From: Pedobacter sp. SYP-B3415
Lineage (GTDB): Bacteria > Bacteroidota > Bacteroidia > Sphingobacteriales > Sphingobacteriaceae
Reading direction: 5' to 3'
DNA: 64,000 nt
Assembly: GCF_004138205.1 (NCBI RefSeq)
Contig: NZ_RXNQ01000031.1
Location: 186,001-250,000, forward strand
The position numbers were made by a program, and so were the translations under genes. The notes under the pieces were generated by a model, which worked only from the letters and a program-made list of their open reading frames with translations, was not told the DNA's origin and did not search any database. Positions 7,343-9,476 of the stretch are shown in pieces (positions within the stretch are counted from its first letter, which is position 1; each line of letters starts with the position of its first letter).

Positions 7343-7378
7343 ACAAAAAACCCCAAAACCAGCAGAGATTTTGGGGTT
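7343..7378 (-). terminator. Terminator of the sigma factor/protease operon
   Basis: Read on the minus strand, AACCCCAAAA pairs with TTTTGGGGTT and a run of T follows. It lies 20 bases after the protease stop codon. Confidence 0.85.
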
Positions 7379-7398: not shown

Positions 7399-8499
7399 TT
7401 AATCTTTATACACTTTGACCATGAAAACGTAGTCCTGCAGCTTTTCAACCTGCTGCGTGCGTTTCAAACCTGAGAGAAGATTTCTCTTGGAAACAGATAT
7501 CTTTTTGTTTAGGGAATCTGAAGGGATGGAATTAATGGCCTCCATAATATATTTTGATTTCACAGCAAACGCAGCACCATCCGGACGGTTATCTTTCCCG
7601 CTGATCATACCGACAATATTACCGGCGTTATCCAGCAGTGGGCCACCGCTGTTGCCCGGATTAACCTGAACGGCAACCTGGTACTGAATGGAATCGCTGT
7701 TGAAACCGGTTACTGAGCTGACATACCCTTCGCCAAGCACTGCATCATCTTTAGGAAAGCCCAGGGTGTACACCACCTCGCCAATGCCCGTTTTTCCTTT
7801 TTTAAGCGTGTAAGGAAGTGCAGCAAAAGAGGAGAAATTTTTGTCTGCGATCTTTAAAATGGCAATATCATTCTGGCTGTCTGTAAACACAGGTGTAGCG
7901 CGGAAAGACTCGCCATTGTTATTTTGCAGATAAAGTGAGTCAGCGCCGCTGATCACATGATAGTTCGTGAGCACATAACCATTTGCAGAAATAGCGAAGC
8001 CTGTTCCGCCAAAACTTCCCGGTTTGAGGCTTTTCTTAGGATCTGCCACAGCAGCAGAATTAACAGTCCGGATCAGGTTATCCTGTGAGCGCTTAACCTT
8101 TTCTATTTTACGGTCAAGCTGTTCATAAGACCCGACCTGCTTGCTCTGGCGGAAATAATTTTCGACCACCATAGAACATAAGATGACAAAAGATGCCGCT
8201 ACAGCAATACCGAGCCGGTTACGCCGCCAGAAGTTGACAATTTTTGACGGATGGGGGCCGAGTTTTGCAGACAGGGCATCTACATCGATCGTTGCATGGA
8301 TATGGTCCATTTTATCCTTCAGCGAACGCTGCGTCGCATAATCATTCATGGTTTCCATAAAAAATTTATGCGCTACAACTTTACTGTCTACCTCCGGATC
8401 GTTATTCCGCAACTGTTCAAAAGCATCCCGCTCGGCCGGACTTAGCTTGCCGCTCAGGTAATCTTCAATAATTGCATCCAGTTCCAAATCACGTCTCAT
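7399..8499 (-). CDS. Membrane-anchored trypsin-like (S1C) serine protease with anti-sigma-like N-terminus
   Basis: A 366-residue protein in three parts. Residues 1-90 are a cytoplasmic helical segment starting MRRDLELDAIIEDYLSGKLSP, like the N-termini of anti-sigma factors. One transmembrane helix follows at about 96-114 (LGIAVAASFVILCSMVV). Residues 160-320 form a periplasmic DegP/HtrA-type protease domain with a full triad: H181 (TNYHV), D211 (NDIAIL), S284 (GNSGGP). No PDZ domain is present. The gene begins 12 bases after the ECF sigma factor gene. The layout suggests a sigma-regulating membrane protein whose sensor part is a protease. The role as an anti-sigma factor is inferred. Confidence 0.8.
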   Translation of the reverse strand: MRRDLELDAIIEDYLSGKLSPAERDAFEQLRNNDPEVDSKVVAHKFFMETMNDYATQRSLKDKMDHIHATIDVDALSAKLGPHPSKIVNFWRRNRLGIAVAASFVILCSMVVENYFRQSKQVGSYEQLDRKIEKVKRSQDNLIRTVNSAAVADPKKSLKPGSFGGTGFAISANGYVLTNYHVISGADSLYLQNNNGESFRATPVFTDSQNDIAILKIADKNFSSFAALPYTLKKGKTGIGEVVYTLGFPKDDAVLGEGYVSSVTGFNSDSIQYQVAVQVNPGNSGGPLLDNAGNIVGMISGKDNRPDGAAFAVKSKYIMEAINSIPSDSLNKKISVSKRNLLSGLKRTQQVEKLQDYVFMVKVYKD

Positions 8500-8511: not shown

Positions 8512-9081
8512 TTAACTGTTAAAAAATATCTTCTTCAAACGCTGCAGACACTTGTACTTCTGCGTTTTCGCGTTATCTGTATTTGTATAACCGAACTTTT
8601 CGCTGATGTCCTGCATCGAGAGATTGTTCAGATAAAAATCCTGTATAATGGTCTTGCAGGGTTCCCCCAGTCCCTCGAGCGCTTCATTCATTTTCATCAG
8701 GCGCTGATCCTGCTCGTCGTGTTTTTCCAGATCATCATCAACAACCAGAACATCTTCATAATCGCTTATGTTGGTTGTTTTTTTATGGTTCTGCGCAAGC
8801 CGTTTCAACCATATTCTGCGGCAAACCGAATAGATATAAGTTTTCAGTTTACTGCTCAGCTCGAAGTCGCCGCTTTTGATCTTATTGTACAAAACGATGA
8901 CCGACTCCTGAAAAACATCCTTCGCATCATCCTCATCACCATTGTTGTTCAGAATGAACTGCAGGATCATCGGAAAGTAACCGAGGTACAATTTGTTGAG
9001 GGTTTCATCTGAGTTATTCAGAATTCCCAAAACCACTTCTCTATCTGTAGGCAACGAACTGTTCAAGGCTTTATTCATCAA
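8512..9081 (-). CDS. ECF-type RNA polymerase sigma factor
   Basis: A 189-residue sigma-70 family protein. Region 2 is at about 30-95 (DDAKDVFQESVIVLYNKI and TYIYSVCRRIWLKRL), and region 4 is at about 130-187 (LSMQDISEKFGYTNTDNAKT followed by CLQRLKKIF). It is the first gene of a two-gene operon with the membrane-bound protease, the usual arrangement for an ECF factor and its regulator. Two ATG codons in tandem make the start uncertain by one codon (9081 or 9078). Confidence 0.9.
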   Translation of the reverse strand: MMNKALNSSLPTDREVVLGILNNSDETLNKLYLGYFPMILQFILNNNGDEDDAKDVFQESVIVLYNKIKSGDFELSSKLKTYIYSVCRRIWLKRLAQNHKKTTNISDYEDVLVVDDDLEKHDEQDQRLMKMNEALEGLGEPCKTIIQDFYLNNLSMQDISEKFGYTNTDNAKTQKYKCLQRLKKIFFNS

Positions 9082-9097
9082 TTAATACATAATCAGC

Positions 9098-9111
9098 CAA
9101 ATAGTAACCCA
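9098..9111 (-). promoter_or_regulatory. Shared promoter motif TGGGTTACTATTTG upstream of the sigma factor
   Basis: On the minus strand the 14-mer TGGGTTACTATTTG lies 17 bases before the sigma factor ATG. An almost identical 14-mer sits in front of the divergent lipoprotein gene (9153-9166), 12 of 14 positions matching. This suggests a common promoter type, possibly recognised by the ECF factor itself. Confidence 0.5.
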
Positions 9112-9152
9112 ATGATAGGCAAAAAAATTTTTTTTATTTTTTTTCATCCCGG

Positions 9153-9166
9153 TGGGTTACCTTTTG
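9153..9166 (+). promoter_or_regulatory. Shared promoter motif TGGGTTACCTTTTG upstream of the small lipoprotein
   Basis: The plus-strand partner of the motif at 9098-9111. It lies 54 bases before the lipoprotein ATG. The two motifs are divergently oriented around an A/T tract of about 25 bases. Confidence 0.5.
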
Positions 9167-9220
9167 TGAATTGGCGTATTAACGGTAAAATTAATTAATC
9201 ACATTAAACAGAAAATTAGA

Positions 9221-9424
9221 ATGAAAAACTTATTTAAATTCGGATTCTTAGCTTTAGCTCTTTCTTTGTCAGTTGCTGCTTGTAACTCAGATAAAAAAGC
9301 TGAAGGTACTGACACTGCTGCTACTGACAGCGGTACTACTGTAATCGACACTAACGTTACTGACACTACTGTAACTGACACTACTGTTACTAAAACTACT
9401 ACTGACACTGTTGCTAAACACTAG
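9221..9424 (+). CDS. Small Thr/Asp-rich lipoprotein
   Basis: A 67-residue protein with a lipoprotein signal: hydrophobic residues 4-17, lipobox VAAC with the lipidated cysteine at 21. The mature part is only 46 residues, low in complexity and rich in T, D and V, with repeated VTDTT units. It lies divergent from the ECF sigma factor and shares its promoter motif, so it may be a target of that factor. No family is recognised. It is followed by a strong terminator. Confidence 0.8.
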   Translation: MKNLFKFGFLALALSLSVAACNSDKKAEGTDTAATDSGTTVIDTNVTDTTVTDTTVTKTTTDTVAKH

Positions 9425-9440: not shown

Positions 9441-9476
9441 AAAAAAACCCTGCCGGAATTCCGGCAGGGTTTTTTT
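9441..9476 (+). terminator. Rho-independent terminator
   Basis: ACCCTGCCGGAA pairs perfectly with TTCCGGCAGGGT, with seven A before and seven T after. It ends the small lipoprotein transcript. Confidence 0.92.

Follow-up and report, generated by a model that had tools for sequence, protein, structure and literature searches.

We analysed a 64,000-nucleotide stretch of the genome of Pedobacter sp. SYP-B3415 (contig NZ_RXNQ01000031.1, forward-strand positions 186,001 to 250,000), here called the window, around a locus where a sigma factor gene and a small lipoprotein gene diverge from a common intergenic region. By curated family models the sigma gene product is an extracytoplasmic function (ECF) sigma factor (group IV sigma-70): it scores 28.5 bits against Pfam Sigma70_r2 (cut-off 24) and 81.9 bits against NCBIfam TIGR02937 (cut-off 42.9), the latter over residues 26-183 of 188. 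The two divergent promoters carry the same two-part element, and comparison across species suggests that the sigma factor drives both its own operon and the lipoprotein gene. A membrane protein encoded next to it may control its activity.

A two-part element in both divergent promoters

The initial annotation had drawn attention to a 14-base motif before each gene, TGGGTTACTATTTG on the minus strand (9098-9111) and TGGGTTACCTTTTG on the plus strand (9153-9166). Inspection of the sequence confirms that the two 14-mers agree at 12 of 14 positions, differ at two and face away from each other, and that neither fits the spacing of TAnnTTTG, the -7 element of housekeeping sigma-A promoters, both being off by one. 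The motif is real and shared by both promoters, but it is only the upstream half of an element that runs 16 bases further: side by side, the match continues from 9111 to 9082 on the minus strand (TGGGTTACTATTTGGCTGATTATGTATTAA) and from 9153 to 9182 on the plus strand (TGGGTTACCTTTTGTGAATTGGCGTATTAA). What the two sites have in common is TGGGTTAC-N15-GTATTAA, present in exact copies (Table 1). Read from the sequence, both sites are -35/-10 pairs of ECF type, in which the 14-mer corresponds to the -35 element and the start of the spacer.

A genome-wide scan for the motif as first described, TGGGTTACYWTTTG, found it nowhere else in the 4,466,894-base genome, and a reversed-pattern control gave 0 matches. 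For the full element, the 4.47-Mb genome holds two perfect copies, both at this locus; if all bases were equally frequent, chance alone would give about 0.008 per genome. There are no sites with one mismatch and seven with two. Allowing up to three mismatches gives 81 sites against 87 for the reversed control, so that matches beyond the two exact sites stand at control level and a large regulon in this genome is unsupported.

Table 1. Features of the divergent sigma factor-lipoprotein locus (positions in the window)
Feature	Position	Strand	Description
Sigma-gene promoter	9082..9111	minus	-35 at 9104-9111, -10 at 9082-9088; exact two-part motif
Lipoprotein promoter	9153..9182	plus	-35 at 9153-9160, -10 at 9176-9182; exact motif copy
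A/T-rich 41-bp stretch between the -35 elements	9112..9152	none	read from the sequence
ECF sigma factor gene	8512..9078	minus	ATG at 9078, 3 nt past the -10; Sigma70_r2, TIGR02937
Membrane protease gene, next in the presumed operon	7399..8499	minus	begins 12 nt past the sigma gene; Trypsin_2
67-residue lipoprotein gene	9221..9424	plus	signal peptide ending AAC; Asp/Thr-rich mature part
G+C-rich perfect palindrome followed by T7	9448..9476	plus	likely terminator of the lipoprotein gene; read directly from the sequence
Terminator-like hairpin past the protease gene	7349..7378	minus	12 pairs, 5 of them G-C

Conservation of the sigma gene promoter

We compared the window with the best 80 of at least 523 relatives; these 81 loci are mostly from Pedobacter and Mucilaginibacter, and the set leans to close relatives. 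GGGTTAC-N15/16-GTATTAA lies just upstream of the sigma gene in all 81 (80 with N15, one with N16). The strict pattern fixes GGGTTAC and GTATTAA at 100% by construction, so what carries information is that every one of the 81 loci fits it. Absence of the motif from homologous loci, which the initial annotation had named as the observation to look for against its proposal, was thus searched for and not seen, and its suggestion of an autoregulated ECF promoter class gains support from this cross-species comparison. Sigma orthologues with 74-80% identity occur in 34 of the 35 other genomes of the genus, the exception being G014. The same pattern is found in all 60 genus genomes, the window's included, with 213 matches against 10 for the reversed control. 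Across the order, 196 of 201 genomes contain an exact match, and the remaining five (G152, G156, G235, G238 and G241) carry AGGTTAC-N15-GTATTAA before the sigma gene, with one base changed.

The start codon stands close to the promoter. Transcription usually starts 5-9 nt past the -10 element. In 75 of the 81 loci an in-frame ATG or GTG (74 GTG; ATG in the window) stands 2-3 nt past TATTAA; in five it lies 13-17 nt past it, and in one none was found. Because the start codon comes only 2-3 nt after the -10 (3 nt in the window), the sigma mRNA is predicted to be leaderless. To judge from the printed sequences of distant orthologues, a start codon right after the -10 is not general outside the window's family. 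Leaderless transcripts make up 5.5% of the mRNAs examined in Flavobacterium psychrophilum (PMC9723704).

Two further observations concern the sigma genes. In 23 of the 81 loci a second, tandem motif copy precedes the gene within 140 nt, always with N16 and some 70 nt farther upstream than the first; the window has a single copy, unlike these. The sigma orthologue of G355 (L252) reads through one TAG stop, which may mark a pseudogene or a sequencing error.

The divergent lipoprotein genes

On the opposite strand of the 81 loci a relaxed motif pattern counted 157 copies, with at least one in 76 loci. A gene for a small lipoprotein of 40-110 residues follows 150 of the 157. Among the other seven, five open with MKN and then run into N (one in L124, two each in L125 and L130); the last two are in L150, at a contig end, and in L169, where the copy has no assignment. 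Tandem arrays of two to five lipoprotein genes are present in 53 of the 81 loci, a count made through the motif that motif-less paralogues would escape. MKN stands at or near the start of 141 of 144 distinct lipoproteins, and the -10 lies a median of 36 nt before the ATG at the 121 sites that fit the strict pattern. In G083, a genome of genus g25, the lipoprotein gene is 1.9 Mb from the sigma gene and has kept GGGTTAC-N16-GTATTAA; because this remote gene retains the motif, co-regulation is favoured over mere proximity. The proposal that the lipoprotein is a co-regulated target is supported by comparison, through the 150 divergent copies and through G083.

The lipoproteins themselves share a distinctive composition. 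Across the 144 distinct sequences, Ser or Thr follows Asp at 887 of 925 positions, and the mature parts contain 757 D-[ST]-[AILVMT] motifs where shuffled sequences give 154 (sd 10), an excess that is not a tally of independent events because the proteins are repetitive and related. This motif has been reported for O-glycosylation in Bacteroidota (PMC12871550), where it is looked for in non-cytoplasmic proteins; the window lipoprotein is such a protein and has four copies (shuffle mean 1.6, P 0.04) and may be glycosylated. The lipoproteins of other families often have fewer of these motifs (0-5 among the rows listed).

At the ends of the two transcription units, the palindrome past the lipoprotein gene is absent from the output of our terminator scan because the scan rule demands a loop of 3-8. 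The scan returned three terminator hairpins in the region against 2.1 in shuffles.

Promoter architecture and the TAnnTTTG element

Could the two sites instead be promoters of the housekeeping sigma-A type whose -7 element is widened to TAnnnTTTG? Both 14-mers do contain TA-N3-TTTG, and TAnnTTTG is the form used by Flavobacterium (PMC9723704). We nevertheless consider this very improbable. Counting the window's own two sites, only 19 of the 81 sigma promoters and 21 of the 121 strictly matching lipoprotein promoters have TTTG 0-3 bases after GGGTTAC, whereas GGGTTAC and GTATTAA stand at N15/16 in 81 of 81 sigma loci; and 21 lipoprotein promoters contain a genuine TAnnTTTG at a separate place within the spacer. 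TTTG is thus too rare among the sites to be the functional element, and with this tail of the motif unconserved we rejected a TAnnTTTG variant. Of the motif as first described, then, the ECF-type promoter stands, while its kinship to TAnnTTTG does not. Because the 14-mer covers the -35 and the first bases of the spacer, start sites are predicted some 20-25 nt downstream of it, beyond GTATTAA, and not just after it as the initial annotation had expected.

T is the most frequent base at positions -17 to -11 upstream of the -35, making up 78-96% there before sigma genes and 57-86% before lipoprotein genes; this T-tract is possibly an UP-like element. The spacers of N15 sites are side-specific, reading ATT(T) and then AAA before sigma genes and CTTTT and then TTT before lipoprotein genes.

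The lipoprotein promoters with an embedded TAnnTTTG, exemplified by GGGTTACCTTTTTACCTTTGCGGCATTAA, account for 21 of the 157 lipoprotein-side copies and are nearly all labelled Pedobacter (L102, L105, L112-L114, L117-L121, L123, L125, L129-L136 and L180). A 22nd match, in L163, has the element elsewhere. The arrangement suggests that a constitutive and an induced lipoprotein promoter may overlap in those 21 copies.

Further candidate targets

From the listed genus matches away from sigma loci we chose 20 regions by hand, favouring recurrent ones. Ten precede a DUF4349-type lipoprotein and five a DUF2459 protein (97.8 bits against Pfam DUF2459, cut-off 27). In L196 and L198 the motif precedes a small membrane protein, the same start recurring in L197 without a long open frame; L199 precedes another MKN lipoprotein running into N, and L188 something else. 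Against Pfam DUF4349 (cut-off 27.7) the piece from L183 scores 38.7 bits and that from L193 25.4, below the cut-off.

The DUF4349 homologue in the genome studied here (31% identity) has CAGGTTAC-N15-GTATTAA upstream, with two mismatches; its possible start codons follow 159 or 216 nt downstream of this site. Among the seven two-mismatch sites it alone is backed by the relatives examined, ten genus loci having the exact motif before a DUF4349 lipoprotein, and it is a probable third target. For DUF2459, a 140-residue query run without a positive control found no homologue in this genome. As a separate observation, in all seven of L181-L187 and in none of L193-L195 the stretch from the ECF-type promoter to the start of the DUF4349 gene contains a palindrome around ATGGCCAT (such as CTTCTAATGGCCATTTGAAG), which could be an operator or a hairpin.

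Orthologous loci beyond the family

A more distant set was drawn from 295 genomes of the class and comprises 45 other sigma orthologues scoring at least 199.9 bits, together with 24 weaker ECF genes picked by hand; protease genes were called with a profile from the window's family at a domain score above 100. Of the 45 orthologous loci, which span 12 families, 44 have GGTTAC no more than 100 nt from the sigma gene and 41 have the two-part form. The 36 orthologues outside the window's family keep GGTTAC within 100 nt in 35 cases (11 families), against a background of 335 in 7200 random windows (4.7%). Of these 36 loci, 32 have the two-part form, 32 the protease gene and 27 a divergent lipoprotein gene, and 26, from eight families, combine GGTTAC, the protease gene and a motif-bearing divergent lipoprotein. 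The nine loci within the family are more mixed: the nearest divergent lipoprotein gene has the motif in three, lacks it in four and was not found in two. Neither protease nor lipoprotein was found at any of the 24 weaker ECF loci. By these sequence comparisons the arrangement recurs in many related bacterial families.

The comparison also settles whether the two copies in the window, lying 41 bp apart in a single genome, might be a chance match or a recent local duplication. The chance expectation given above, the occurrence of the paired layout in 26 of the 36 orthologues from other families and the systematic difference between the spacers of the two promoters all speak against it, and we treat this explanation, whose remaining probability is negligible, as refuted by the comparative data.

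The partner membrane protease

The protein encoded after the sigma gene appears to have an anti-sigma-like helical N-terminus (residues ~1-70), a membrane helix judged from sequence (~95-115), a predicted long helix and a protease domain (~165-320). Its AlphaFold model has a mean pLDDT of 77.5. The protease assignment rests on 91.8 bits to Pfam Trypsin_2 (cut-off 27.6; residues 165-320) and on a Foldseek search whose top row is DegS-deltaPDZ (E 1.1e-11), with plant Deg1 and MucD close behind. All 32 aligned partner sequences share H181, D211 and S284, so that the protein combines the trypsin fold with the intact His-Asp-Ser triad of HtrA/DegS proteases. Its best NCBIfam models are Do/HtrA, MarP and DegS, all below their cut-offs (95.2 bits against 416.2 for the Do family, 77.1 against 422.95 for DegS). 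No PDZ domain was found among Pfam matches at E 0.01, and about 46 residues follow the protease domain. The partner may thus work like DegS, and we do not class it as DegS.

The gene adjoins its sigma gene, as do those of membrane anti-sigma factors, with the 12-nt gap in the window, and 41 of the 45 orthologous loci have a protease gene after the sigma gene. In the model, three helices made up of the first 70 residues precede the membrane helix, and the domain is conserved. From a similarity to anti-sigma factors that is weak but repeated, in sequence and in the model, we infer that the partner may join an anti-sigma factor and a protease in one protein.

Discussion

We propose that RNA polymerase with this sigma factor would read leftwards through the sigma gene and the adjoining gene for the membrane protease, and rightwards through the gene for a small lipoprotein of the envelope. 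The N-terminal domain of the membrane protein, on the cytoplasmic side, would hold the sigma factor. Some signal in the periplasm, probably stress on the envelope or on protein folding, would act through the HtrA/DegS-type domain, the anti-sigma part would be cut or released, and the freed sigma factor would amplify itself, boost its own inhibitor and raise lipoprotein output. To this reading as a whole, in which the sigma factor drives its own operon and the lipoprotein gene and the partner controls the sigma factor, we assign a probability of about 0.85. At the level of sequence, the motif, its spacing, the gene order and the target set are established by comparison among genomes. Binding of the motif by the sigma factor, the anti-sigma role, the signal, the proteolysis and the glycosylation of the lipoprotein are what we infer.

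Several observations weigh against this reading. G014, a member of the genus, lacks a close sigma orthologue (best E 3.6e-20) yet has one exact motif match. No divergent copy was found in the examined stretch of five of the 81 loci (L122, L156, L167, L171 and L174), nor at eight sigma loci of genus g25 (L206-L212 and L277), and in the distant set the motif is missing at the nearest divergent lipoprotein gene in 5 of the 34 loci that have one. Four of the 45 orthologous loci yielded no protease gene, and one yielded no GGTTAC. GGTTAC, each time in the two-part form, is also present before six of the 24 less related ECF genes. On the partner's side, the NCBIfam anti-sigma model NF052375 matches at E 0.0022 but with 18.1 bits against a cut-off of 100. 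Matches to zf-HC2 (E 0.05-0.19 in three of five partner proteins) are below the cut-off, with unrelated families equal or better (Hemerythrin, E 0.005). Foldseek found no significant match to a solved structure for the anti-sigma-like domain: the anti-sigma factor RslA fills six of the top 12 rows at E 1.8 or above, behind an affibody at 1.5. Among the folds that it lists, VIA-align superposes the N-terminus on RslA over 62 residues with Z 5.9 and rmsd 5.0, which the tool rates as possibly only a common arrangement.

Because six less related ECF genes carry the two-part GGTTAC, promoter recognition may be shared with other ECF factors, and the motif might even be the site of a different regulator, whether another ECF factor or a repressor or activator, that controls the locus. 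We judge this improbable. Two elements at a fixed N15/16 spacing right before a start codon are the geometry of a promoter, GGTTAC precedes the sigma gene in 44 of 45 orthologous loci across 12 families, and within the genome the exact two-part motif is confined to this locus. A stronger contender concerns the partner only: the membrane protease would be a co-regulated quality-control effector, and the sigma factor would be set by transcription or by another protein. The invariant catalytic triad, which makes the protein look like an active enzyme, fits such a role, as does an anti-sigma similarity that lies under every curated cut-off. We think it unlikely, given that the protease is encoded after the sigma gene in most orthologous loci, that a conserved helical domain precedes the membrane helix and that several weak signals all point toward anti-sigma factors. 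The partner as anti-sigma factor remains our preferred view.

The proposed circuit resembles the envelope-stress pathway of E. coli, in which RpoE, RseA and DegS represent an ECF sigma factor, a membrane-bound regulator and a DegS-type periplasmic protease under autoregulation. All four components have likely counterparts here, although of that pathway only the DegS fold was compared. It differs in that an anti-sigma-like domain and an HtrA/DegS-type protease would sit on one polypeptide, with no PDZ domain found, in that the promoter has another sequence and in that small lipoproteins are the main predicted targets. Within the Bacteroidota, the Das/Dma systems of Bacteroides pair an ECF21 sigma factor with a dual membrane-spanning anti-sigma factor (PMC13088901). 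These are likewise an ECF sigma factor with an adjoining regulator that has an N-terminal anti-sigma domain, a membrane helix and a long extracytoplasmic part. Unlike Dma, which ends in a C-terminal beta-barrel, the partner here ends in a trypsin-fold serine protease, and we therefore rejected membership in the Dma family. Like the SM6 promoters of F. psychrophilum (PMC9723704), the present ones form a Bacteroidota ECF class found by its motif; the SM6 class includes a sigma/anti-sigma operon, to which the operon here may correspond. They differ from SM6 as described there in the -10 (GTATTAA), the -35 (GGGTTAC) and the mainly lipoprotein targets.

The window lipoprotein is also small, and similar in length and composition, like members of the PG1828 family (NCBIfam NF050142), against whose model it scores 44.3 bits, below the cut-off of 50; a genus relative (L219 in G084) reaches 54.2 bits with its neighbours in frame included. 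Among 30 loci retrieved with that model, a sigma gene lies within the stretch in five, three of them in family f1, the window among these. The top PG1828-like matches in other families (L214-L217) have, by eye, a TAnnTTTG-type promoter and no adjacent sigma gene within the stretch. PG1827 of P. gingivalis has been named SigH (PMC12119571), and SigH has been placed in ECF114 (PMC8999054). Possible kinship with the PG1827/PG1828 pair is a lead only.

Autoregulation by ECF sigma factors is already familiar. Among the matches listed in the open-access literature, we did not find the promoter, the apparent anti-sigma/HtrA-type fusion or the sequon-rich lipoprotein output described, and the system may have been named earlier in ECF classification. 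More speculatively, and with rather more doubt than belief, we suggest that in at least eight families beyond the window's a single membrane protein could be the anti-sigma factor and, through an HtrA/DegS-type domain, also the site-1 protease that cuts it, like RseA and DegS in one piece; that the sigma mRNA of the window's family would be leaderless, mostly with a GUG start; and that the main output would be lipoproteins built as strings of O-glycosylation sites, forming a stress-induced, mucin-like glycolipoprotein coat.

Bacteroidota have many ECF sigma factors, few of them with a known promoter and target set. For one such factor, our comparison across 12 families defines both promoter elements and the distance between them, and points to likely targets and a likely partner. 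Should the partner prove to combine anti-sigma and protease functions, the classic multi-protein sigma-E cascade would be reduced here to one protein. The finding also provides a handle on small lipoproteins rich in O-glycosylation motifs.
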